Source of the DNA: Pseudoflavonifractor sp. An44
Lineage (GTDB): Bacteria; Bacillota; Clostridia; Oscillospirales; Oscillospiraceae
NCBI RefSeq assembly: GCF_002161675.1
Contig: NZ_NFIH01000001.1
Location: 124,001-188,000, forward strand
Direction: 5' to 3'
DNA length: 64,000 bases
The position numbers were made by a program, and so were the translations under genes. Positions 981 to 15,156 of the stretch are shown one piece after another (within the stretch, counting starts at the first letter, position 1; every line of letters starts with the position of its first letter). The notes beneath the pieces are model-generated. The model did not search any database. It saw only the letters and a list, made by a program, of their open reading frames with translations, and was not told the origin of the DNA.

Positions 981-3425
981 ATGAACAAATCTGCGATACA
1001 AAAATTTGCCGTATGGGCCCGCACCACGCTCATGGAGCAGGTGGCCCAGCGGGCCTACCAATACGGCATCATCAAAGACGGCTATGGCGATGCAAACGCC
1101 GTCACTGTCAACGGCAAGGCCCTCTCCACCCAGGAGCAGGGCCAACGCCGGGAGCTGGTGCGGGAGATTCAGTCCAAGGGCTATGACCAAGTGATAGAAG
1201 AAGTGGCCTATACCTGGTTCAACCGCTTCATCGCCCTGCGGTACATGGAGGTCAACAACTACCTGCCCAGCCACATCCGGGTGTTCTCCAATGCCCAGGG
1301 GGAGTTTGACCCAGAAATTTTGAAGGAGGCCCTCCACATGGACCTGCCGGGGCTGGACCAAAGCCAGGTGGCGGAGCACATCGAGAAGAACGAAACCGAG
1401 GCTCTGTACCGCTACCTGCTTCTCACCCAGTGCAACGCCCTCAACGAGGGCCTGCCCAAGATGTTTGAGAAGATGGGCGGCTATACCGAGCTGCTCTTTC
1501 CCAACAACATTCTCCGCCCAGATAGTGTACTGGGGCATATGGTGTCCGACATTCCCGAGGAGGACTGGACCGATCAGGTACAGATCATCGGGTGGCTGTA
1601 CCAGTATTACAACACCCAGTTGAAGGCTGAAACCTTCGATCTACTGAAGAAGAATGTAAAAATCACCAAGGAGCGCATCCCCTCTGCCACCCAGCTCTTT
1701 ACCCCCGACTGGATCGTGCGCTACATGGTGGAGAACTCTCTGGGCAGACTGGTCATTGACAATTTGAACTATGACATCTGGGCAGAGAGTGAAAAGGCAA
1801 AGATTGATCTTTTAAAAGCCAAATGGAACTACTATGTGGAAGAGGCCGAACAAGACCCGGACGTGGATACAGAGCTACGTATTTTTTCACACAACAAATA
1901 CGCCAGAGGGGACAAACTGCCCTTTGTAGACACCACATTTTTTGATCCCTGTATGGGCAGCGGCCACGTTCTGGTCTACGCCTTTGATGTGTTCATGGAC
2001 ATCTACACCTCCCAGGGGTGGAATCCCCGGGACGCCGCCCAGCGGATTGTAGAAAAAAATCTGTACGGCTTGGATATTGACAAGCGTGCGGCCCAGCTGG
2101 CCTATTTTGCCGTGATGATGAAAGCCCGGCAATATGACCGTCGATTTCTCACCCGTGGCATTCAGCCAAACCTATACAGCCCTGGAAGCTATGCCGATGG
2201 ACAGGAGTATGGCTCCCTGCTGGTGGTAGACGAACTGGAACCCAAACCCGAAGCACCAGAAGAGTTCACCCTGTTTGATGCGGATTACGAAGATCAGTTG
2301 AACAGCTGGAACTTCCGCCGCCTTCTCTCTCAGGAGTACGATGTGGTAGTGACCAACCCGCCCTACATGGCGGTGAGCAATGGAAATGCCGCACTGAACA
2401 AATACATTAAAAAAAATTATCCAGACAGCAAAGGCGATTTGTTTGCAGCATTTATCGAACGCTGCTGGAAGTACTCCTCTCAATACCTGGCCATGATTAC
2501 CCAACACAGTTGGATGTTCTTGTCCAGCTTTGAGAAGCTGCGCACCAAGTTACTCCTCTCCACTGACATTGTCAACATGGCTCACCTGGGAGCCAGAGCC
2601 TTCGAGGAGATCGGCGGTGAAGTGGTACAAACCACCAGTTTTGTGCTGCGCATGGGCTATCACGAAGGCTACAGAGGAACTTACTGCCGCTTGGTGGAGC
2701 CCACTACTCAGCAGGGCAAGGAAGATATGTTCCTGGGTGGCGAGAGTCGGCATATAGCAGTACAGACTAATTTCTTCAAAATTCCTGGTTCTCCGATTGC
2801 GTACTGGATAAGTAGGACACTCCTATCCATATTCTCCGAAAATAAAAACGTCGGGCAGCTTTCACAACCGAGGCAAGGTTCTACTTTAGGTGACAACGCA
2901 TCCTTCTTGAGATTTTGGTTTGAAATTAGAGAAAAAGGAACAAAGTGGTTTAATTGCATGAAAGGAGGGGAATATCGTCGATGGTACGGGAATATCTTAT
3001 ATGTTTTAGACTGGGAAAATAATGGTGCCCATATTAAATCTACTGGAAGAGCGACTATTCGTAGTGAAAATATGCTTTTCCGTGAAGGAATCACATGGTC
3101 AAATATTACATCTGGAAAATCATCTTTTCGCTATATGCCAGAAGGATTTTTCTTTGAGAGCACAGGATCTGTTTGCTTTATAGATCAAGAGTTGCTGAAC
3201 TATCTACTCGGATTTTTGAATTCTCCAATTACTGATAAAATAAACTATATAATAAATCCAACATTACATTTACAATCTGGAGACATTGCAAAAATTCCGC
3301 TAATCATATCCAATGATAAATTAAGTGATATTTCTTATTCTGTTTCAGAAAATATCACCTTTTCCAGAATAGATTGGGATTCTAACGAAACCTCCTGGGA
3401 TTTCAAGCGGCATCCATTGGTGTGA
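981..3425 (+). CDS. pglX: PglX N-terminal part: BREX adenine-specific DNA methyltransferase and specificity region
   Basis: 814 residues. It contains an SAM-binding motif (FDPCMGSGH, about residue 321) and the amino-methyltransferase motif NPPY (about 459), the signature of N6-adenine methyltransferases that mark host DNA at BREX sites. The last 220 residues form the target-recognition region and are written in clearly more AT-rich DNA than the first 580. The protein ends at SWDFKRHPLV followed by TGA, a point where a full-length PglX (about 1,200 residues) would continue. The missing C-terminal domain is encoded at 4259-5332. ATG at 981 follows AAAGGAGGT. Together the two parts total 1,171 residues, the normal family length, so this looks like a split of one gene. 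Whether the two parts reassemble is unknown. Confidence 0.9.
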   Translation: MNKSAIQKFAVWARTTLMEQVAQRAYQYGIIKDGYGDANAVTVNGKALSTQEQGQRRELVREIQSKGYDQVIEEVAYTWFNRFIALRYMEVNNYLPSHIRVFSNAQGEFDPEILKEALHMDLPGLDQSQVAEHIEKNETEALYRYLLLTQCNALNEGLPKMFEKMGGYTELLFPNNILRPDSVLGHMVSDIPEEDWTDQVQIIGWLYQYYNTQLKAETFDLLKKNVKITKERIPSATQLFTPDWIVRYMVENSLGRLVIDNLNYDIWAESEKAKIDLLKAKWNYYVEEAEQDPDVDTELRIFSHNKYARGDKLPFVDTTFFDPCMGSGHVLVYAFDVFMDIYTSQGWNPRDAAQRIVEKNLYGLDIDKRAAQLAYFAVMMKARQYDRRFLTRGIQPNLYSPGSYADGQEYGSLLVVDELEPKPEAPEEFTLFDADYEDQLNSWNFRRLLSQEYDVVVTNPPYMAVSNGNAALNKYIKKNYPDSKGDLFAAFIERCWKYSSQYLAMITQHSWMFLSSFEKLRTKLLLSTDIVNMAHLGARAFEEIGGEVVQTTSFVLRMGYHEGYRGTYCRLVEPTTQQGKEDMFLGGESRHIAVQTNFFKIPGSPIAYWISRTLLSIFSENKNVGQLSQPRQGSTLGDNASFLRFWFEIREKGTKWFNCMKGGEYRRWYGNILYVLDWENNGAHIKSTGRATIRSENMLFREGITWSNITSGKSSFRYMPEGFFFESTGSVCFIDQELLNYLLGFLNSPITDKINYIINPTLHLQSGDIAKIPLIISNDKLSDISYSVSENITFSRIDWDSNETSWDFKRHPLV

Positions 3426-3434
3426 GGTGACACC

Positions 3435-4247
3435 ATGCTGAAGCAAAAACTAAAGCTCAAATGGATAGTTATAGTAGCAATAGCAGCCATCCTTATATTC
3501 ATGCCAAAGATAGTGGATTGGTTATTCAGCATTTATGTCTGTGATTTTACTGCTTTAACAGTTGTTAATGCTCACGATGTGATCGGGTATGTTGGGGCTG
3601 TTTTTGGAGGACTATGTGCTTTAGTTGCCGTAGCAATTGCTGTACGACAATTCTCCATTGAAAAGTGTCCAATTATTATTCCACAAAATAAAATCATCTA
3701 CTATTACCAAAATTTCGACAGAAAATATGCATTCCAGGATACGCCGGATATGGAGAAACAGCCCCCTAATTTTAGTCCGCAAATACTACAATATTTCGTT
3801 TTAGAGAACGCTTCAAACAGTCCTGCAATAGCATTTGACATCGTGATTCGCTATCATAACGGCGAATGGTATCGTTCAATCTGCAATCTAATCGGTGGCG
3901 CCCCTGATGAGATTTTGAACTCTTCGTTTGAAGATGATAAATATTTCAACCAAGGTGTTTTTAATGCAAATTCAACCAGAAAGCTAGTAATCCCTATTAA
4001 TGTAGAATACATCACAAAAGGAATAAGTTACAGATTATATGAACCAACTGCAGCCCCCAAATGTAAAGCAGGACGTTGGGATCACTTTTTGCGCAAAACC
4101 CACAAAATAGCAGAAATCCGGATTTGCTCACAGGATGTACTTGGTAAATTACGAACGGATTCATATGATATGCAGATTGGAATCACAGATTGCATGGATA
4201 AACCAGTGTACGAAATCTCATTTACATTCGTAAGCAAGAAAAAGTGA
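3435..4247 (+). CDS. 270-residue two-helix membrane protein embedded in split pglX
   Basis: Not recognised as a named family. Two hydrophobic segments lie near the N terminus (about residues 9-35 and 47-70), followed by a soluble domain of about 200 residues with no motif I can name. The layout suggests an anchored cytoplasmic domain. The DNA is AT-rich, unlike the GC-rich pglX segments before and after it but like the pglX specificity region just upstream. The ATG follows a GAGGTG site that overlaps the stop of the upstream pglX part, so translation is probably coupled. The stop lies in GTGAGG, again just ahead of the next gene's ATG. Its position inside pglX suggests it arrived with the foreign specificity segment. 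A role in BREX is inference only. Confidence 0.75.
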   Translation: MLKQKLKLKWIVIVAIAAILIFMPKIVDWLFSIYVCDFTALTVVNAHDVIGYVGAVFGGLCALVAVAIAVRQFSIEKCPIIIPQNKIIYYYQNFDRKYAFQDTPDMEKQPPNFSPQILQYFVLENASNSPAIAFDIVIRYHNGEWYRSICNLIGGAPDEILNSSFEDDKYFNQGVFNANSTRKLVIPINVEYITKGISYRLYEPTAAPKCKAGRWDHFLRKTHKIAEIRICSQDVLGKLRTDSYDMQIGITDCMDKPVYEISFTFVSKKK

Positions 4248-4258
4248 GGCTCTAAACC

Positions 4259-5332
4259 ATGGGACAATTAATTTCCAACAAATTCACCGCCTGGCAGGCG
4301 GAATGTGAAGCCCGGTTTCAGCAGCTCAAAGCCAATGAGGAGGAGCTGAACCGCATTTTCATTGACATCTACGGTCTCCAGGACGAGCTGACCCCCGAGG
4401 TGGCCGACAAGGATGTCACCGTACATCGGATTTTCAACACCAAGGACGATGTCCCCGAGTCCATGAAGGGGAGCAACTACGTCCGCACCCTCCGGGATGA
4501 GATTGTGTCCCTTCTCTCCTATGCAGTGGGCTGCATGTTTGGCCGCTACTGCCTGGACAAGGATGGGCTGGTCTTTGCCGGCGGGAACTTTGACGATGTG
4601 TACTGGCTGTTCAAAGGCCCTGCCCCCTGCAACAAAGACGGCTCTCTCCTCCCAGGTGCTGGCTATGCAGGCGTGAGTCTGGCCCAAGCGCATTACTACA
4701 AGCTGCGTGACAACGACGATCCCGACAAAGCCACCACGCTGACGTTTGAGCCAGACCGTGACAACATCATCCCCATCTGCGACGACGACTACTTTGACGA
4801 TGACATCACCGGGCGGTTTGTGAAGTGGGTCAAGGCCGTGTACGGTGAGGACACTCTGGAGGAAAACCTGAGATTCATTGCCGATGCTCTGGGCGGGAAA
4901 GGCTCTCCCCGGGAAGTCATTCGGTCCTATTTCCTGAGTGACTTTTTCAAAGGCCACTGCAAGACCTATCAAAAGCGGCCCATCTACTGGCTGTTTGACA
5001 GCGGCAAAAAGAATGGTTTCAAGGCCCTCATCTACCTGCACCGCTATCAGCGGGATTTGCTGGCCCGGATGCGCACCGACTATGTCCATGAGCAGCAAGA
5101 GCGCTACCGCACCCAGCTCTCCCATCTGGCCGATTCCCTGGAGCACGTCTCCGGATCCGACCGTGTCCGCCTGACCAAGCAGCAGAAAAAGCTCCAGGAA
5201 CAAAGCCTAGAGCTGCAAGCCTACGAGGAAAAGATTCACCACCTGGCGGATCAGAACATTGAAATTGACCTGGATGATGGGGTAAAGGTGAACTACGCCA
5301 AATTTGGCGATGTGCTGGCAAAGATTAAGTGA
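4259..5332 (+). CDS. pglX: PglX C-terminal part as a separate gene
   Basis: 357 residues. The N terminus (LKANEEELNRIFIDIYGLQ) and the DELTPEV-DKDVTV stretch match the conserved C-terminal domain of BREX type 1 PglX, which in other hosts is fused directly behind the methyltransferase and specificity region. The DNA is GC-rich like the first part of pglX. It has its own ATG, but the ribosome site is weak (GTGAGG 9 bases upstream, shared with the stop of the embedded gene), which favours coupled translation. The reading frame is intact throughout, so decay is not obvious. No catalytic motif is expected in this domain. Possible states: a functional two-subunit PglX, or an inactivated methyltransferase. 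Confidence 0.85.
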   Translation: MGQLISNKFTAWQAECEARFQQLKANEEELNRIFIDIYGLQDELTPEVADKDVTVHRIFNTKDDVPESMKGSNYVRTLRDEIVSLLSYAVGCMFGRYCLDKDGLVFAGGNFDDVYWLFKGPAPCNKDGSLLPGAGYAGVSLAQAHYYKLRDNDDPDKATTLTFEPDRDNIIPICDDDYFDDDITGRFVKWVKAVYGEDTLEENLRFIADALGGKGSPREVIRSYFLSDFFKGHCKTYQKRPIYWLFDSGKKNGFKALIYLHRYQRDLLARMRTDYVHEQQERYRTQLSHLADSLEHVSGSDRVRLTKQQKKLQEQSLELQAYEEKIHHLADQNIEIDLDDGVKVNYAKFGDVLAKIK

Positions 5333-5341
5333 GGGATTGTT

Positions 5342-6247
5342 ATGGGTAATGTCTTTGCGGATTTTTTGCAAAACAGTGGCTTATATGATGAAATAGCTAT
5401 AACACAAGAAAATATTCAGGATTTAATTTCACTGATTGCTGGAGATGTTCGGCTGGATGTCTATTGCAAAGAATGTGGTGCAAATCGCATTTTTACAATG
5501 GCACCCCTCCCATGTTTTCTTGGCGCAGAAGAGAACACCTATACTGCCGAAAAACTCTCTAATGTTCTACAACAAATCCAAAATAATCAAGCAACTGATA
5601 AAGCGTTTTCATTAGTACCTCGATATGGTACGGAATGGGTCTGGAACACATTGGTCACTGATTACTATACGGGTGTAATTTCATTTCAATTTGTATGCAC
5701 TCTGCATCCAGAACATCATTTAGACTATATTGTGACTACGCGTTCTAACAAAATGCGCAAAATTGGCCAATACCCATCGGTAGCAGACTTGACATTTCCC
5801 GAACTTGATGTCTACAAAAAAGATATTTCAAGTGAAGATCGAAAGGAACTACGTAGAGCGATTGGTCTGTATGCCCAAGGTATTGGAGTAGGATCCTATG
5901 TTTATCTTCGCCGGGTCTTTGAACGCATCATTGATAAAGCGAAAGATTATGCTATCGGGGACCAAAAGTTTAATCTTGATAACTATCAAAAAGCAAAAAT
6001 GGATCAAAGAATTCATATGCTTCGTGGCTACCTCCCCGCTATACTCACAGAGAACAAAGGGATCTATGGTATAATCAGCAAGGGAATCCACGAACTTGCA
6101 GAGGAAGATTGCATTGAATATTTTCCTATCATGCAAGAAGCAATTTTTATGATCCTGCGACAGTGGAAGCAAAAGCGAGAGGAACTTGAGTCCACAAAGG
6201 CCATTGCATCAAAAATAGCAAAGATTGCGGAGAAAGTGAAAGAATAA
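5342..6247 (+). CDS. 301-residue zinc-ribbon plus helical (HEPN/DUF4145-like?) protein in BREX operon
   Basis: Not a standard BREX component. The N-terminal half has a possible split zinc ribbon (CKECG near residue 40 and CTLHPEHH near 120). The C-terminal half is helical, with ARG-like and KGIHELAEEDC segments that recall the DUF4145/HEPN group seen in many defence islands; no clear R-x4-6-H nuclease motif was found. The DNA is AT-rich, unlike pglZ downstream. It starts 9 bases after the C-terminal pglX part and ends 15 bases before pglZ, so it is co-transcribed with BREX. It could be an accessory effector, a regulator, or a hitchhiker. The family assignment is tentative; co-directional placement in the operon is the firm observation. 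Confidence 0.65.
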   Translation: MGNVFADFLQNSGLYDEIAITQENIQDLISLIAGDVRLDVYCKECGANRIFTMAPLPCFLGAEENTYTAEKLSNVLQQIQNNQATDKAFSLVPRYGTEWVWNTLVTDYYTGVISFQFVCTLHPEHHLDYIVTTRSNKMRKIGQYPSVADLTFPELDVYKKDISSEDRKELRRAIGLYAQGIGVGSYVYLRRVFERIIDKAKDYAIGDQKFNLDNYQKAKMDQRIHMLRGYLPAILTENKGIYGIISKGIHELAEEDCIEYFPIMQEAIFMILRQWKQKREELESTKAIASKIAKIAEKVKE

Positions 6248-6262
6248 TAGGAGGAGTCCACC

Positions 6263-8851
6263 ATGTCCATCGAATCCATACAATCTAACCTGAGCGAGCG
6301 TTTTGCCGCTCCCCTGCCCGAATTTCATCAACGTCACATCATCTTCTGGCAGGATGAGGACCGGGAGTTCGAGGCCATGGTGGACGAGCTGGATCTGCCA
6401 GGTGTGCAGATCATCAAGCTCACTGGCTCCAACAACTTTGCAGTCAAGAAGCTGCTGCTCCACGACGATCTCACCAGCCATTTTCTCATCTACAACCCCT
6501 TTGCCTACGAAAACTCCAAAGAGAACTGGCTGAGAGATATTGAGCTATTCAGCGAGGAGTACCGGGCAGACTATATATCCATGCTCATGAGCGAGCTGAA
6601 CGTTGCCTCTGGGCCTGCCATGCGCAAAACGGTGAAGCTCTACACTAAATTTCTGGATAGCAAAGAGCGCAAGGCCAAGCTGCAAAAGATCGGACGCAGC
6701 TATGAGGCCCCCATCCAGTTTCACATTGATGTGATGGCCGTCTTGGCAGGCGTCCCCGGCGGATCTGCTCAAGATGTCTTCATTGCCGTCCTCTCCCACG
6801 GGATGGATGCATCGGAAAACATGCCCTTGGTCAACATCGGCAAGTTTGGCAACATAGACGCCTTCTGGCAGCTGGTGCGCAAATACACCGGATACCAGTA
6901 TGAAGAAGGCCGTTCCCTGGACGGCTTTGCCGCTCATGTGCTGTTGACCGCACTGTCTCAGACCATGAGCGCCAGTGTGTTCAACGGTCTGGAACGTTTT
7001 CTCTCTGACTCCAACCGTGCCTATTGTTACAGCATGATCCACGAATGGCAAAATCGAGAGGACAACGCCATTTTATTGGAGCTCTGCCGCAATGTGGAGC
7101 AAGCGTTGCAGCTCCCAACCCGCTTTGACAAGCAGGAGGTGGAGGCGCTGCTCACCGGTGACATTTTCCCCGCTCTTCACGAGAGCATTCTAAAACGCTT
7201 CTTTGACGAGATTTCCAACCAGGTCGTTCGGACAGAGCTGATTTTAAAAGTTGTGGAAAACCGCCGCACCTCCGGTTGGTATGAACTGTTTGCCCCCTAT
7301 TACGAGTGTCTCTATTATGTGGCTCGAATGCAGCATTACTACCAGGACAACGCAGGCGGATTCCACATCGTGGAGCCACAGTCCATCTGGAAGCTCTACA
7401 CCGAAAGCGCCTACCAAATGGATTCTGATTACCGCCATTTCCATCTTCACTTTGGTACCTCCCTCAAGGATAGCAATGCTGTTTTGGAGGATAAGCTGAA
7501 GCATACCTCTCAGTATGTGGAGGGACTATATCAGAACTGGTTCCTTCGGGAACTGACTGCCAGCTGGACCAACGCAAGTGCGGACGACTGGGCCGCTCTG
7601 GGCTATGTGTCAGAGATCCGCAGGCAACGGGATTTTTACAGCCGCTATATTCGGCCTCTGGCCAGTAAAAAGGCCCGCGCCTTTGTCATCATCTCTGACG
7701 CCCTCCGCTACGAGGTGGCCTCAGAGCTGTGTGAGACGGTGGTGCGCACCACAAAAGGCAACGCCAAACTGGAGTCAGTACAGGCCACCTTCCCCTCTAT
7801 TACCAAGTTTGGTATGGCAGCATTGCTGTCTGGTAAGGAACTGTCCATTACCGACGACATGGAGGTATTGGCCGATGGAATGCCCACCCGCTCCACTGCG
7901 GAACGCCAGAAAGTTCTCTGTGCTGCCAATCCCAAGAGCGTGGCCGTCCAGTACAGCGATGTTTTGAGCATGAAGCGCGCAGAGCGGCGGGAATTGGTCA
8001 CCGGGATGGATGTGGTCTACATCTACCACAACACCATCGACGCCATCGGGGACAAGTCCGCCACAGAGCAAAAGGTCTTTGAAGCCTGCGAAGACACCGT
8101 CCAGGAGCTTTCCAACCTGCTGCGCATCATCATCAACGATATGCAAGGAACCGACATTTTCATCACGTCAGACCACGGTTTTCTCTACACTTACAGCCCT
8201 CTTTTGGAGCGTGACAAGCTGAGCAAGGATGCCTTTGAGGGGAGCGTTCTGGAGCTGGGCAGACGCTATGCTCTGACCACACCAGATACCACTGCCAACT
8301 ATCTGTTGCCCATTCAGTTGGATGGGCAGTTGAGGGGCACCCCTGTCCAGGGATATGCCCCTCAGGACACCACCCGTATCAAGGTGAAGGGCGGCGGAGA
8401 AAATTACGTCCACGGCGGAATCAGCTTGCAAGAGATGGTAGTCCCAGTGATCGTCTTTAAGAATCTGCGCACCAGCAGCAAGCAATTTGTGGAGCTCTCT
8501 AATGCACAGTTGGGTCTGCTCAGTGAAAGCCGAAAGATCACCAACCTGATCTTCTCTCTGGACTTTTTCCAGCGCCAGCCCATCAGCGATAAGGTTCAGC
8601 CCTGTACCTACACCATCTATATGACGGATGACCAGGGCGTCTTAGTCAGCGATCGCCAGAGCATCATCGCCGATCGCACCAGCAGCAACGCCTCGGAACG
8701 AGTCTTCCGGGTCCGGTTTAATCTGAAGGCTGGCAGCTACGACCGAAACGAGATTTACCGCCTGGTCATCAGCAATAACGTGGATGTGCCAGAAGAGGCT
8801 GAATTTCACATCGACATTGCCCTGGCAGATGATTTTGGGTTTGACTTATAA
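6263..8851 (+). CDS. pglZ: PglZ, BREX alkaline-phosphatase-superfamily protein
   Basis: 862 residues, normal for type 1 PglZ. The central phosphatase-like domain shows a first metal-binding segment (IISDALRYE, Asp near residue 477), YHNTIDAIGDK, and a second metal site (TSDHGFLYT, near 634), the pattern of alkaline phosphatase superfamily members. PglZ is a core BREX protein essential for both defence and methylation and is thought to act in complex with PglX and BrxB. It follows an AGGAGGAG site and ends 12 bases before brxL. The DNA returns to the GC-rich composition of brxC and the first half of pglX. Confidence 0.95.
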   Translation: MSIESIQSNLSERFAAPLPEFHQRHIIFWQDEDREFEAMVDELDLPGVQIIKLTGSNNFAVKKLLLHDDLTSHFLIYNPFAYENSKENWLRDIELFSEEYRADYISMLMSELNVASGPAMRKTVKLYTKFLDSKERKAKLQKIGRSYEAPIQFHIDVMAVLAGVPGGSAQDVFIAVLSHGMDASENMPLVNIGKFGNIDAFWQLVRKYTGYQYEEGRSLDGFAAHVLLTALSQTMSASVFNGLERFLSDSNRAYCYSMIHEWQNREDNAILLELCRNVEQALQLPTRFDKQEVEALLTGDIFPALHESILKRFFDEISNQVVRTELILKVVENRRTSGWYELFAPYYECLYYVARMQHYYQDNAGGFHIVEPQSIWKLYTESAYQMDSDYRHFHLHFGTSLKDSNAVLEDKLKHTSQYVEGLYQNWFLRELTASWTNASADDWAALGYVSEIRRQRDFYSRYIRPLASKKARAFVIISDALRYEVASELCETVVRTTKGNAKLESVQATFPSITKFGMAALLSGKELSITDDMEVLADGMPTRSTAERQKVLCAANPKSVAVQYSDVLSMKRAERRELVTGMDVVYIYHNTIDAIGDKSATEQKVFEACEDTVQELSNLLRIIINDMQGTDIFITSDHGFLYTYSPLLERDKLSKDAFEGSVLELGRRYALTTPDTTANYLLPIQLDGQLRGTPVQGYAPQDTTRIKVKGGGENYVHGGISLQEMVVPVIVFKNLRTSSKQFVELSNAQLGLLSESRKITNLIFSLDFFQRQPISDKVQPCTYTIYMTDDQGVLVSDRQSIIADRTSSNASERVFRVRFNLKAGSYDRNEIYRLVISNNVDVPEEAEFHIDIALADDFGFDL

Positions 8852-8863
8852 GGAGAAACCGAT

Positions 8864-10933
8864 ATGGATGACTGGAAAACAGAAAATCAAACAGATGACG
8901 CCAATGCTGTTTTAAACCAAAAGCTACGGCAATACTTTGACGGACGCATCGTCCGTAAAGATCTGACCAAGTCCATCAAAGAGGGTGCAAATGTCCCTGT
9001 CTATGTGCTGGAGTTCCTGTTGGGACAGTATTGCAGCTCAGACGATGAAGAAGTGATTGAGAAGGGTGTGCAAAATGTAAAACACATTCTCTCAGACAAT
9101 TTCGTTCGGCCCGATGAGGCCCAAAAGGTACTCTCTCTCCTGCGAGAACGAGGCAGCTATACTGTCATCGACCGGCTCACCGTCAAACTCAACATCAAGC
9201 TGGACCGTTATGAGGCAGACTTCTCCAATTTGGGCATTAAAAATATTCCCATTGCAGCAGAGTATGTATCTCAATATGACCGACTGCTCTGTGGCGGTAT
9301 CTGGTGCATCGTGCAGCTAGATTATGAATTCTGCGAGGAGGACAAACACAACTCCCCCATTCAGATTCGCAAAGTCACCCCTATTCAGATGCCCCATATC
9401 GACCTGTCCGAAATCAAAAATGCCAGGAAATATTTTACCAAAGAGGAGTGGTTGTCTCTGCTTCTCCGCTCCACCGGCATGGAAGCTGATAAATTCACCC
9501 AGCGTGAAAAGTGGCTTCTCCTGGCCCGTATGCTTCCCCTGGTGGAAAACAACTTCAATCTCTGCGAGCTTGGTCCTCGAAGTACCGGCAAGTCCCACCT
9601 CTACAAGGAGATCTCCCCCAACAGTATTCTGGTATCCGGCGGTCAAACCACGGTGGCCAATCTCTTTTACAACATGAGCACCAAAACAGTTGGATTGGTT
9701 GGACTTTGGGATTGTGTGGCCTTCGACGAAGTGGCTGGTATCACGTTCAAAGATAAAGACGGCGTACAGATCATGAAGGACTATATGGCCTCTGGCTCCT
9801 TTGCCCGTGGAAAAGAAGAAAAATCCGCCAGTGCCTCCATGGTCTTTGTGGGCAATATCAACCAAAGTGTGGATGTGTTGCTCAAGACTTCACATCTTTT
9901 CGAACCCTTTCCCTACGCCATGGCATATGATACTGCCTTTTTGGATCGCATGCATTGTTACATACCAGGTTGGGAAATTCCAAAGTATCGCCCCGACTTT
10001 TTCACCAATGACTACGGGTTTATCACTGATTATCTGGCCGAATTTATGCGGGAAATGCGCAAAGAGCCCTGGGGCGATGCCTGCGACCGGTACTTCCGCT
10101 TTGGCCGCAACCTCAACCAACGAGATACCATTGCCGTTCGCAAAATGGTCTCTGGCTTTACCAAGCTTCTCTACCCTGATGGCATCTTTTCACGGGAAGA
10201 CATGGAGGAAATCCTGACCTATGCCTTGGAAATGCGCCGGAGAGTAAAGGAACAACTCAAAAAAATTGGCGGCATGGAGTTCTATGATGTGAACTTCTCT
10301 TACATCGATAATGAGTCCTTCGAAGAGCGTTTTGTATCTGTGCCAGAACAAGGCGGAGGCAAGTTAATTCCGGAAGGCATGGCCAACCCTGGCACCGTCT
10401 ATACGGTATCCCATGGAAAATCTGGCATGGTTGGTGTTTTCCGTCTAGAAACCCAAATGTTGCCCGGGAATGGTAAATTCGAACGCACTGGGCTAGGCAG
10501 TGATCGAGAAGCCAAAGAAGCTGCCAATACCGCCTTCAACTTTCTCAAGGCCAATGGCAGTGGCATATCCCGTTCCATCAGCACCACCCAAAAGGACTAT
10601 ATCACCAATTATCAGGATCTCAATGGGATTGGCATGACCAAGTCTCTCGCTCTTCCCACAGTGATTGCCATTGCTTCCGCAGCCTTAAACAAGCCAACCC
10701 TCAGCAGTCTTGCGGTTTTGGGCGAGATCAGCATCAGCGGGGCCATCACCAAAGTGGATGAGTTGGCCAATGTCCTCCAAGTTTGTCTGGACAGCGGTGC
10801 AAAAAAGATTCTGCTCCCAATTACCTCAGCTGTAGATCTGGGCAGTGTTCCTCCAGATTTGATGGGATCTTTTAGTATCATCTTCTATACAACTGCGCAG
10901 GAAGCCGTATTTAAGGCACTGGGTGTGGAATAG
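8864..10933 (+). CDS. brxL: BrxL, Lon-like AAA+ ATPase of type 1 BREX
   Basis: 689 residues. An AAA+ module has Walker A (GPRSTGKS, about residue 238) and Walker B (VAFDEVAG, about 285). A Lon-protease-like C-terminal domain ends the protein (about 580-689). The canonical Lon Ser loop is not recognisable, in line with BrxL being described as a DNA-binding AAA+ ring rather than an active protease. BrxL is the last gene of type 1 BREX and is needed for phage exclusion. The order brxC-pglX-pglZ-brxL fixes the type. A strong hairpin lies 20 bases after the stop and ends the operon. Confidence 0.95.
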   Translation: MDDWKTENQTDDANAVLNQKLRQYFDGRIVRKDLTKSIKEGANVPVYVLEFLLGQYCSSDDEEVIEKGVQNVKHILSDNFVRPDEAQKVLSLLRERGSYTVIDRLTVKLNIKLDRYEADFSNLGIKNIPIAAEYVSQYDRLLCGGIWCIVQLDYEFCEEDKHNSPIQIRKVTPIQMPHIDLSEIKNARKYFTKEEWLSLLLRSTGMEADKFTQREKWLLLARMLPLVENNFNLCELGPRSTGKSHLYKEISPNSILVSGGQTTVANLFYNMSTKTVGLVGLWDCVAFDEVAGITFKDKDGVQIMKDYMASGSFARGKEEKSASASMVFVGNINQSVDVLLKTSHLFEPFPYAMAYDTAFLDRMHCYIPGWEIPKYRPDFFTNDYGFITDYLAEFMREMRKEPWGDACDRYFRFGRNLNQRDTIAVRKMVSGFTKLLYPDGIFSREDMEEILTYALEMRRRVKEQLKKIGGMEFYDVNFSYIDNESFEERFVSVPEQGGGKLIPEGMANPGTVYTVSHGKSGMVGVFRLETQMLPGNGKFERTGLGSDREAKEAANTAFNFLKANGSGISRSISTTQKDYITNYQDLNGIGMTKSLALPTVIAIASAALNKPTLSSLAVLGEISISGAITKVDELANVLQVCLDSGAKKILLPITSAVDLGSVPPDLMGSFSIIFYTTAQEAVFKALGVE

Positions 10934-11028: not shown

Positions 11029-12765
11029 TTAGCACATAGGCACCCCGTACCCCATAATCTCATAATACCCAACAGGATAGCTTCGCTGTCTGCAGGCGTC
11101 TCCGGAGTTTCCTTCAATGGTGTACACCCGCCCGTCTTCCACCTTCTCCACAATGCCAACATGGTCAGGGACACCGTCCTGCGAGCCAGAGATGCCGCTA
11201 GGATCATCCCAATCGAAGAAAATCAGTGTACCAGGCGATGGTTCCATGCTGTTGTCCGCCCACTGCCCTCGTTCCTTAAACCATCTGACACCGGTAACGC
11301 AGCCCGCAAACTTGGGAATCACACCGTTCTCAATATATCCGCACTCATTGGCGCACCAGGACACAAAACAAGCGCACCACTCCACATGGGAGTGGAATCC
11401 ATACCAGGACCAGTACGGTTCACCCCCCAAGTTCCCCACTTGGGAGAGTGCAACGGCGACAATCTGTCCATCGGACGCTGTGATGCCGTACAGAACCGAT
11501 GACCAGAGAACAGAATTTTCATCAGCCAGCAATTCCCCCAGCATCTCCTTCTGTTCCTGGTGAAATCCGTATTCTTCCGCCATCTCCTGGGCCGTCTTGT
11601 GACTGACGGTGATTCGGAGATAGGTATTGGTCACACTCACCTCTTCCTCTATAATCGTTCCGTTCCCATCATCTGTCTCCACAAGTTTCTTCTCTACCTT
11701 GTCCTCCAAATCGTAATCAATTCGATTCATTGCCCAGAAGATTTCCTCCAGCAGCTGCTGCTTTTCTTCTGTCATAGTGGCCACTTCCTGGGGCCGCTCT
11801 GGGTCCATGGTGGTCTTGACCGCATAAACAGCAAGCACTTCCGGCCACACCGCACGAGAGCCCGACATTTCCAGCACATCGTAGCTCACCGATGCCTTGA
11901 TGTCATCTAATTTATTCTGATACTTCTCATTGATTGTCTGCACCACCTGTCTCATGGTCAATTCGTCACCTCTGCCCTCATTGGAAAAGAAGATGCCAAA
12001 GCAAGAGGCGACAACCCATGCGATGACACAGATTACGACTACGATGGCCACTACCACCCATCCACCTGCCGCGATTGCAGTCACCAGAGACTTTGTCCCG
12101 GCCATGACGGCCTTAGCCGCAGAGGCCGCAGCACGCCCTGCTGTACGGAGCGTCACAGGAGACTGTTTCACCGTACCTCCCGCCCGCTGCAGTGCCATTC
12201 GAGATGCTTTCCAGGTGGTAACAGCAGATTGTTTGGCTGCCTGAGCGGCCTTTTCAGGGGCTTCCGGTGAAATTCTGGCCGCATGTTTTGCAGTTGTTTT
12301 CGTGGATTTCGGTGTAGTCTTTACCGATTTCCCGACACCAGTCGGTTGTGATGTTTCGGTTCTCGTCTTGATTCTCTTGGTCTTGGTCCGCTTACTGTCC
12401 TGCCGGTCTGGTTGGGGGCATGCTCCACCTCTGTCTTCCGTCTCAGGCGTCCACTCTCCCCTTGCTATTTCCATCTTTTCTGCCTGCTTGCGTCGTTTCC
12501 GGTGCATATAAGCTGTCCTGCCCTTCTCCACCGCCTTTACTCCTGTGGACCATCCAGCATGACCGGCATCGGCGATGCCATCCTCTAAGGCACTTTGCAG
12601 ATTGTCGGATGCATACTCTGAAGGGGAGTTCTGTTCACCACCAGATAAACGGTCTGCTCGCGCACGGATGCGATCGGCCGCCCCCCGCATGTGCTGCCCT
12701 GCTGCGGCTGCTCTGTCCAGTATCTTAATGTTTTGCATCTTTTCCCTGGTTTTGATATCTGCCAC
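11029..12765 (-). CDS. CHAP-domain peptidoglycan hydrolase of the conjugation machine
   Basis: 578 residues. The first 220 residues are Lys/Arg-rich, Ala-rich and probably cytoplasmic. One membrane helix follows (about 232-260), then a linker domain and a C-terminal CHAP amidase/endopeptidase domain with its Cys (CACFVSW, about 460) and His (DHVGIVE, about 538). Such VirB1/TcpG-type proteins open the cell wall for the mating channel. GTG at 12,765 has an AAAGGAAAG site. It is the last gene of the transfer operon seen here and converges on BREX; the usual downstream ICE genes are absent at this spot. Confidence 0.85.
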   Translation of the reverse strand: MADIKTREKMQNIKILDRAAAAGQHMRGAADRIRARADRLSGGEQNSPSEYASDNLQSALEDGIADAGHAGWSTGVKAVEKGRTAYMHRKRRKQAEKMEIARGEWTPETEDRGGACPQPDRQDSKRTKTKRIKTRTETSQPTGVGKSVKTTPKSTKTTAKHAARISPEAPEKAAQAAKQSAVTTWKASRMALQRAGGTVKQSPVTLRTAGRAAASAAKAVMAGTKSLVTAIAAGGWVVVAIVVVICVIAWVVASCFGIFFSNEGRGDELTMRQVVQTINEKYQNKLDDIKASVSYDVLEMSGSRAVWPEVLAVYAVKTTMDPERPQEVATMTEEKQQLLEEIFWAMNRIDYDLEDKVEKKLVETDDGNGTIIEEEVSVTNTYLRITVSHKTAQEMAEEYGFHQEQKEMLGELLADENSVLWSSVLYGITASDGQIVAVALSQVGNLGGEPYWSWYGFHSHVEWCACFVSWCANECGYIENGVIPKFAGCVTGVRWFKERGQWADNSMEPSPGTLIFFDWDDPSGISGSQDGVPDHVGIVEKVEDGRVYTIEGNSGDACRQRSYPVGYYEIMGYGVPMC

Positions 12766-12806
12766 AGTATCACTTTCCTTTCTCTGTTCCGCCCATAAAG
12801 CGCAAA

Positions 12807-12835
12807 AGGAGGACAGGCATCACGCCTGTCCTCCT
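12807..12835 (-). terminator. attenuator-like hairpin at the end of virB4
   Basis: A 12-bp perfect inverted repeat (AGGAGGACAGGC and its complement, 5-base loop) followed on the minus strand by a short T run. It overlaps the stop codon of virB4 and sits just before the CHAP gene, so it may lower expression of the hydrolase. Confidence 0.45.
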
Positions 12836-15156
12836 GCAAAATCACCCTCGCCGGGTCGGGTCGTCATCCGCTGATACATTTTTGTATCCTTGGGAAAATG
12901 GTTGACAAACGGCACCAAGGCACCGCCATATTTGATCAGTCCGCATCCAGGCTCTGCATTGGTCACATAGCTCATCTGTTCATTGGAGATATTCAAAAGC
13001 TTGGCCAGCTTCTCCCGGTCCTGAGCCGCCTGGTTGAACATCACAATGAATTCACTGTTGGAAAGCATGGTACTGGCCTGCACAGAGTCCAACAGGTACT
13101 CTACATTCTGGGTAATGGCCGTGGGGTAGGCATTGCGCTTGCGGAACTGACGCCAGGCGGAATTGAAGAATGCAGCTGAAAATTCATTCTCAAACACCAC
13201 ATGGAACTCATCGATAAACACATGCGTCCGCTTTCCCTTCTTCCAGTTCAGAGTCACACGGTTGAGCATGGTATCGGTAATCACCAGAAGTCCCGCAGGC
13301 TTCAGCTGCTCCCCCAGCCCGTGAATGTCGAATACCACCACCCTCTTATCCAGGTCCACATTGCTGTGATGTCCGAAGATATCCAGCGAACCTGTGGTAT
13401 ACAGCTCCAGGGACAGTGCAACTTGCTTTGCCTCCGGTTCCGGCTGCTCCAACAGCTTCAGCCGCAGGGTATTCAGAGTGGGCACGATCCCGCTCTGTTC
13501 TGCTTCATGGTACACCGCAGCAGTACAGCGGTCGATGATAGACTTGTGCTGAGGCCCCACGCCTTTCTTATCGATCTGCTCTACCAGGGACATAATGAAT
13601 TGAGATTTCACCACAATGGGATTGTTCGCTCCATACCCCTCCACCATATACATGGCATTCAGCCTGTCCCCTCCACTGGCAGAAACATGGATGGTGGAGA
13701 CGTCCTGAAGGCCACGCAGCATGGTTGCATACTCGCCTTCTGGATCGCAGATCAAAATGTCGTCTTCTGTGCTCAGAAGCAGAGAGAAAATCAGCATCTT
13801 GGCCGAAAACGATTTTCCGGACCCAGACACGCCCAACATAAAGGTGGACTGGTTCATCAAATTTTCCCGGTTGCACATGATGGGATTGTGGGAGATGGCG
13901 TTTTCTCCGAAGTAGATACCGCCCTTGTCCATAATTTCCTGGACCTTGAAGGGCATGAACACCGCGACGGACTCGGTTGTAAGGGTGCGAAAGGCATGGA
14001 TCTTACGTACTCCAAACGGCAAAACCGTCTTCAATCCATCCAACTGCTGATACCGGAGCACCGCCATTTGGCACATATGCTTACGGGCAATGGCCAGGAT
14101 GGCCTCCGTGTCGCTGTCCAACTGCTCCTTGGTGTTCGCCACATGAACCATTGTGATAACGGCAAACATCATTCTCTGGTCTCGTACCGTCATGTCATTG
14201 AGATATTCCTTGGTCTCCTTTCTCTGCATCTCCATGTCATAGGGGACCACAGCAGAAAAATTGTTGTTGGCGTTCTGGCGCCTCTGCCAATCGGTGATGT
14301 TCTTCTCCACACCCAGCAGGGTATTCTCGATACCGCGAATGGCCTCATCGGTGGGCACCGGGTTGATGTCAATGGAGAGCATCAGGCTCCGGTTCAAATC
14401 GGTCAACTCGGTCACCATAGAGTCCTTGATATAGGAGGCGTAGTCCTTGAGATATAGCACCCGAGCATATCGTCCCCCAATTCTCAAATAGTCACTGTGT
14501 TTTTCCAGGGAGTCCGGACAGATATAGTCCCGGAAATCATGTCCTTTCTTCATCATATCCTTGAGGTCCAGATGAAACTCTGCGGTGTCACCGGGATGGA
14601 AGAACGTGTGGAAGATTTTCAGGCGGTCTACGGCACTCAGTTCCGCACACTTGGAGCCCAGAACGGCAAAGTGGCTGGAAAAATCCGCTCCAACCCGTGC
14701 AAAGTAGGTGCGGGCTTCCTGAATATCTTTCTTTGGCACAGAAGTTGTAATGAATTTTTCCTGCACCATCCTGGTTCCGCCGGTAGCTTTATCCAGGAGC
14801 ATCTGGTTGCACTCCATACAGTATTCGTCCAGCTCATTTCCTCGAAGCGGCATGAGAATGGACTCCTCGAACTCTCCTCGGTTGACCACATGGTTAAAAA
14901 TCGTAATTTTAGTGCTGGCTCCGCTGTCCAAGCTATTCAGCAATTCAGAATAGTCCAGGAACATAGCCTCTTTATCTTCTTTGGATGCTACCAGGTAGTT
15001 GATGTCCTGGAAGCGAAAAGTCTTGGAAAACTTGCTTCCAGACTGGAAGATTCCATCCTCCCACATGGTCTGAATGGGAATCACGTCCTGTACCTTGCCA
15101 GGCAGTCGATACCGTTCTTTTTCCTGATGCATCAGTCTTCTGATCGTCTTAATCAT
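12820..15156 (-). CDS. virB4: VirB4/TraE-type conjugation ATPase
   Basis: 778 residues, typical for VirB4 of Gram-positive ICEs. Walker A (GVSGSGKS) is near residue 443 and Walker B (HVFIDEFH) near 647. The N-terminal half is the VirB4 substrate/assembly domain. VirB4 powers assembly of the type IV secretion channel at the membrane. Its ATG overlaps the end of the PrgI gene by four bases (ATGA), showing tight coupling, and the CHAP hydrolase gene follows. GC content fits the ICE backbone. Confidence 0.95.
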   Translation of the reverse strand: MIKTIRRLMHQEKERYRLPGKVQDVIPIQTMWEDGIFQSGSKFSKTFRFQDINYLVASKEDKEAMFLDYSELLNSLDSGASTKITIFNHVVNRGEFEESILMPLRGNELDEYCMECNQMLLDKATGGTRMVQEKFITTSVPKKDIQEARTYFARVGADFSSHFAVLGSKCAELSAVDRLKIFHTFFHPGDTAEFHLDLKDMMKKGHDFRDYICPDSLEKHSDYLRIGGRYARVLYLKDYASYIKDSMVTELTDLNRSLMLSIDINPVPTDEAIRGIENTLLGVEKNITDWQRRQNANNNFSAVVPYDMEMQRKETKEYLNDMTVRDQRMMFAVITMVHVANTKEQLDSDTEAILAIARKHMCQMAVLRYQQLDGLKTVLPFGVRKIHAFRTLTTESVAVFMPFKVQEIMDKGGIYFGENAISHNPIMCNRENLMNQSTFMLGVSGSGKSFSAKMLIFSLLLSTEDDILICDPEGEYATMLRGLQDVSTIHVSASGGDRLNAMYMVEGYGANNPIVVKSQFIMSLVEQIDKKGVGPQHKSIIDRCTAAVYHEAEQSGIVPTLNTLRLKLLEQPEPEAKQVALSLELYTTGSLDIFGHHSNVDLDKRVVVFDIHGLGEQLKPAGLLVITDTMLNRVTLNWKKGKRTHVFIDEFHVVFENEFSAAFFNSAWRQFRKRNAYPTAITQNVEYLLDSVQASTMLSNSEFIVMFNQAAQDREKLAKLLNISNEQMSYVTNAEPGCGLIKYGGALVPFVNHFPKDTKMYQRMTTRPGEGDFAGGQA

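Follow-up and report, generated by a model that had tools for sequence, protein, structure and literature searches.

The type I BREX operon of Pseudoflavonifractor sp. An44 carries its pglX gene as two separate pieces with a complete gene between them, and we consider it likely that the two products form a working two-subunit PglX, in which a constant C-terminal subunit serves exchangeable recognition subunits and an accessory gene lies behind the recognition subunit. PglX is divided at this same point in 30 further loci distributed over four phyla, far more often than chance would allow.

By the window we mean the whole 64-kb stretch of DNA that was analyzed. Its BREX genes all lie on the forward strand and are separated by short spacers. 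The window opens within brxC, whose 3' part occupies positions 1-966 and whose start lies upstream. In the window's locus as extended upstream (L131), brxA, brxB and brxC are complete within L131:6228-10966, with matches to Pfam BrxA at L131:6228-6845 and BrxB at L131:6833-7414, both just upstream of the window, and to NCBIfam BREX_BrxC at L131:7430-10966 (1254 bits). There follow pglX-N (981-3425), a gene for a 270-aa membrane protein (3435-4247), pglX-C (4259-5332), a gene for a 301-aa protein (5342-6247), type A pglZ (6263-8851; TIGR02687, 615 bits) and brxL (8864-10933; TIGR02653, 1074 bits). All six genes of the type I set (brxA, brxB, brxC, pglX, pglZ type A and brxL) are therefore present in order and in one cluster, with pglX in two pieces. 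The 301-aa gene, between pglX-C and pglZ, is a second low-GC accessory gene; its product has Cys pairs near the N-terminus and a weak match to PHROG 25239 (function unknown), and its position is the one where other BREX loci have Schlafen, AAA or DUF2971 genes. On the reverse strand just after brxL (11029-15156) are genes that appear conjugative-element-like, including those for a long protein with an endopeptidase-like C-terminus and for a VirB4-like ATPase; these neighbors suggest that the BREX operon may be located on or beside an integrative conjugative element.

We compared the two pieces with one-piece PglX by several means. PglX-N (814 aa) consists of an N-terminal bundle, an N6-adenine methyltransferase and a target recognition domain (TRD), and ends in SWDFKRHPLV; PglX-C (357 aa) contains spacer helices, a winged HTH and a coiled-coil end. 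Against the NCBIfam BREX_1_MTaseX model of 1210 positions, PglX-N aligned from model position 1 with 910 bits and PglX-C over positions 906-1209 with 391 bits. Using phmmer against the solved PglX/BrxX proteins, PglX-N corresponded to residues 1-885 and PglX-C to about residues 889-1195; together the two parts span the one-piece enzyme from end to end. Their summed length of 1171 residues, against 1205-1225 for one-piece PglX, bears out an earlier reading of the sequence alone, which had the halves adding up to normal length. In solved PglX the TRD ends at 837-849 and is followed by two spacer helices (PMC11842806, PMC11341690), which places the cut close behind the TRD and before the bulk of the spacer helices. 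As in type 1 PglX/BrxX, PglX-N has the SAM-binding (DPCMGSGH) and NPPY motifs in its methyltransferase, followed by the TRD, and PglX-C has the spacer helices and D-D-I-D-Y metal site of the C-terminal domain, with the ligands retained as D166, D168, I170, D181 and Y275; type 1 PglX/BrxX is a single polypeptide, whereas here there are two genes with a complete gene between them. The fold model of PglX-C (pLDDT 86) gave strong Foldseek matches to PglX structures only, with TM scores of 0.74-0.79 to 9ewz, 8c45, 8q56 and 8zek. In two other loci (L063:10001-11299 and L061:10001-11299), about 130 additional residues separate the N-terminal helix region of PglX-C from its metal-site region.

The sequence-only reading had also proposed that the halves are separated by a membrane-protein gene, that coding resumes some 830 bases later, and that the genes are linked by GTGAGG-type junctions. 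These points hold in detail. The open reading frames 981-3425, 3435-4247 and 4259-5332 are each intact, the gap between pglX-N and pglX-C measures 833 bp, and the junctions on either side of the embedded gene read GTGTGAGGTGACACCATG (3420-3437, forward strand, with a GAGGTG ribosome-binding site overlapped by the pglX-N stop) and AAGTGAGGCTCTAAACCATG, the stop in each case overlapping or abutting a GAGG-type ribosome-binding site. The TGAGGTG context of the pglX-N stop is also found in L004, L005 and the second N copy of L063. Over the stretch from about 2740 to 4255, which comprises the TRD and the embedded gene, GC content drops from approximately 55% to 35-40%, and third-position GC is 0.33 in the TRD (2740-3425) versus 0.69 in the preceding part of pglX-N.

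When GTDB genomes were searched with the C half, 67 loci were obtained; a script classified these and the window's own locus. N and C were separate in 31 loci (window included) and fused in 28, and C stood alone in 9. In the 30 split loci besides the window, N preceded C in 25 and C preceded N in 5. The split loci belong to Bacillota, Actinomycetota, Spirochaetota and Melainabacteria, and their hosts are gut and anaerobic bacteria: Oscillospiraceae and other Clostridia, Coriobacteriia, a spirochaete and a melainabacterium. The cut point is conserved, with N ending in SWDFKRHPLV and a stop, or a close variant, and C starting with Met-xxLIxDKY. One example is a Collinsella aerofaciens replicon recorded as complete (NZ_OY725717), in which the order is brxA, brxB, brxC, pglX, a hypothetical gene, a second hypothetical gene that is PglX-C, pglZ and brxL.

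Among sampled members of the family to which the window belongs, standalone C frames (n = 8) outnumbered clearly fused ones (n = 4); across the class as a whole, the clear cases were of the fused kind. The tree of the C domain requires four to five changes of state, and a single split clade was rejected by the AU test (p = 0.0165). These changes may represent separate splits, refusions or transfers. The apparent splits in L051, L052, L054, L067 and L130 were excluded, each being a contig end, a frameshift, a deletion or an unclear case, and L032, L129, L065 and L068 were also removed from the cleaned tree. Two of these loci have unusual arrangements. The pglX frame at L067:9815-10933 has lost its methyltransferase by internal deletion, so that the N-terminus is joined directly to the TRD end and C-terminal domain; L032:405-10966 has a fused pglX plus a second, standalone pglX-C adjoining pglZ, and between the two are genes for an AAA-like protein and several small nucleotidyltransferase/HEPN-like genes.

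Comparison of closely related loci indicates that the parts of the system are exchanged separately. Between the window and its nearest relative, L002, the N-terminal and methyltransferase domains are 94% identical, the TRD 47% and the C subunit 90%, and the embedded genes are unrelated; relative to L002, the low-GC TRD of the window has been replaced. The same pattern holds when this pair is taken with the Collinsella pairs L030/L034 and L037/L039 (N-terminal and methyltransferase domains 93-95%, TRD 41-47%, C 90-98%), and the opposite pattern is seen in L064/L005 and L027/L030, where the methyltransferase domains are 49-59% and the TRDs 77-85% identical. For L005 and L006, the N and C trees are discordant. 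We rejected the idea that the TRD and the embedded cargo gene move as one cassette: L064/L005 and L027/L030 share a TRD without sharing cargo, and L002 and L006 have cargo in common with different TRDs. The halves, the TRD and the cargo exchange independently, and N, TRD and cargo do so against a conserved C. In L023 and L063 a single C is accompanied by two N genes, both with SAM and NPPY motifs intact, and L012 has one full N and one N cut by the contig end. The five loci with C before N are all from Actinomycetota, and in other loci C is kilobases from N. In two of the five C-before-N loci, L050:10975-15689 and L053:12406-16976, pglX-N is followed by inverted partial copies (methyltransferase end and TRD) with inverted repeats of 122-159 nt that are 77-85% identical, an arrangement that would fit an invertible specificity locus.

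The product of the embedded gene in the window has two TM helices (approximately residues 10-28 and 52-70, by hydropathy) and a soluble part with predicted strands. It had no match in Pfam, NCBIfam or PADLOC, including the HEPN RNase, DUF2971 and SIR2 profiles of families found in other gaps; its single-sequence fold model was poor (pLDDT 39), and its sequence matches in the PDB were weak. No relatives above the cut-off were found in 300 sampled genomes of the phylum, plasmids, phages or IMG/VR, and an order-level search of 295 genomes gave one weak partial match (G272; 35% over 66 residues, E = 8e-5) in a frame with a stop. Among BREX loci, a relative occurs only in the gap of one other split locus (L005:8496-9323), and its similarity is weak and confined to the TM part. 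The proposal of the sequence-only reading that the membrane protein is an accessory belonging to the two-subunit form is not supported. Because the other split loci have unrelated genes or none in this place, the protein is cargo of the window's locus and not part of the enzyme; we regard an accessory or back-up effector as its most likely role.

The gaps of the other split loci point to a cargo slot at the junction, filled by locus-specific and often toxin-like genes. In most cases the distance from the N stop to the start of the cargo gene is about 20 bp or less. Related proteins with an RNxxAH motif, some of them weakly matching a HEPN profile, are encoded in 7 gaps, RiboL-PSP HEPN proteins in 3, and DUF2971 proteins in 3 and also behind the second N of L063; DUF2971 is a defence candidate in PADLOC. 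Further contents are SIR2, Schlafen AlbA_2, RhuM, DUF4760 and a weak RES match, and the gap is nearly empty in L046, L061 and behind the first N copy of L063. The slot most often holds a HEPN-RNase or DUF2971 gene and sometimes nothing. In L053:12406-15606, the pglX-N frame extends about 230 residues past the TRD and has a weak DUF2971 match there (E = 0.04), making it a possible natural fusion of a recognition subunit with a cargo domain.

We propose the following model. PglX is known from E. coli and Salmonella as a Pacman-shaped enzyme, and the N and C subunits would most likely assemble non-covalently into the same shape. PglX-N, comprising the helical bundle, methyltransferase and TRD, would select and methylate the 6-bp site; PglX-C, with its HsdS-like spacer helices, winged HTH and coiled coil, would provide the DNA-gripping part of the lower jaw, closing around the DNA, and would contact the other Brx proteins BrxB, BrxC and PglZ. 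As C is separate and constant, N could be exchanged or duplicated without touching it, and several N subunits may share one C. The junction would serve as a landing place for cargo genes, within the same operon and just behind N, with translation probably coupled across the junctions. Analogy with the effectors described across BREX loci in one survey (PMC12839542) suggests an accessory or back-up effector role for the cargo. A more elaborate version, which we offer tentatively and think quite doubtful, is that one constant PglX-C is common to several exchangeable and sometimes invertible N subunits, each with a translationally coupled, toxin-like partner that intact PglX restrains and that is set free once a phage disables PglX.

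Several explanations of the split as damage or artefact were weighed, and none fits well. That pglX was broken by insertion of a foreign gene and is decaying would explain a low-GC insert within a higher-GC gene, and we nevertheless find it very improbable: the same cut is present in 30 other loci, some of which (L046, L061, L063) have nearly empty gaps, the frames are intact with their own ribosome-binding sites, the neighboring core genes are complete, and dN/dS is low on both sides of the cut. On undisturbed parts it is mostly 0.03-0.28, and between the window and L002 it is 0.066 for N and 0.21 for C, values that place both halves under purifying selection where they have not been replaced. 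The earlier suggestion of a two-gene PglX rather than decay is upheld by this evidence, by the conserved catalytic and metal residues, by the completeness of the operon, and by the matching layout of NZ_OY725717, a replicon recorded as complete. An error of assembly or sequencing is scarcely credible given that independent isolates (L002, L003, L064) and the complete-recorded NZ_OY725717 share the layout and that three different stop codons terminate the N half. Equally little weight falls on production of a single protein by stop-codon recoding, intron splicing or intein splicing, which we rejected. N ends in TGA, TAA or TAG at different loci, and C has its own start and ribosome-binding site, with a Shine-Dalgarno match at 32 of 36 standalone C starts compared with 11% at the same place in fused genes; unrelated genes occupy the gap, C precedes N in five loci, and Rfam detected no intron above threshold.

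The main rival accepts two working genes and holds that PglX-N alone is the methyltransferase, with PglX-C a separate regulatory or docking factor that joins the restriction complex only. Streptomyces type 2 PglX, in which the C-terminal domain is absent and flanking domains are lacking, is active alone in vitro (PMC12707154), so C need not belong to the enzyme; variants of the PglX C-terminus can uncouple restriction from modification (PMC12707154); and the C gene comes ahead of N in five loci and lies kilobases from it in others. Against this, the groove of the C-terminal domain for the 3' tail of the DNA has been called essential for stable binding (PMC11842806), and the detached C retains all of the metal ligands, and we judge this rival distinctly unlikely. 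A further alternative concerns the cargo only and is compatible with a two-subunit PglX: the gap genes would be neutral passengers, brought by recombination at the variable TRD and without a role in BREX. Near relatives do differ in cargo, some gaps are nearly empty, and the window's cargo has no close relative; yet gap families recur across phyla (the HEPN proteins of L033 and L030 are 37% identical, and the RNxxAH family occurs in seven loci), cargo usually begins about 20 bp or less from the N stop, and auxiliary effectors of this kind are reported across BREX loci (PMC12839542). We consider the passenger explanation rather doubtful.

The two-subunit PglX has consequences for annotation and for experiment. 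The C subunit is missed by database annotation: the 391 bits of the window's PglX-C fall below the curated cut-off of 500 for the NCBIfam PglX model (NF033452), and the PglX-C of NZ_OY725717 is named a hypothetical protein. Split systems are therefore probably under-counted in databases. The natural cut site makes the role of the C-terminal domain directly testable by omitting or swapping one natural subunit, the exchanges suggest that BREX specificity can be changed without rebuilding the enzyme, and the PglX gap is a new place to seek defence effectors. No description of a split PglX was found in the open-access BREX papers searched, in keeping with the earlier impression that this form was without a known description; it is apparently an undescribed form of type I BREX.

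Auxiliary and back-up effectors of HEPN and Schlafen types have been described inside BREX operons (Rakesh and Krishnan 2026, PMC12839542); that paper presents BrxX as one protein and has none of the words split, fission or fragmented, and its accessible part makes no mention of a cargo slot between PglX halves. Compared with the one-piece type I PglX/BrxX of E. coli HS and Salmonella D23580 (PDB 9ewz, 8c45), the split systems have the same six core genes in the standard order and keep the catalytic and metal-binding residues, but their PglX comes from two genes: the break falls after the TRD and ahead of most of the spacer helices, and a further gene occupies it. Type I restriction-modification (HsdM and HsdS) likewise divides a methyltransferase among subunits and has a helical spacer of the HsdS kind and exchangeable recognition parts; in split PglX, however, the TRD stays with the methyltransferase, and the spacer and C-terminal part form the separate, constant subunit. 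Finally, lactobacilli have invertible or duplicated pglX genes that, as far as is known, encode a one-piece enzyme. The inverted partial N copies and long inverted repeats of L050 and L053 resemble these, except that in split loci the switching would be confined to the N gene and leave C unchanged.
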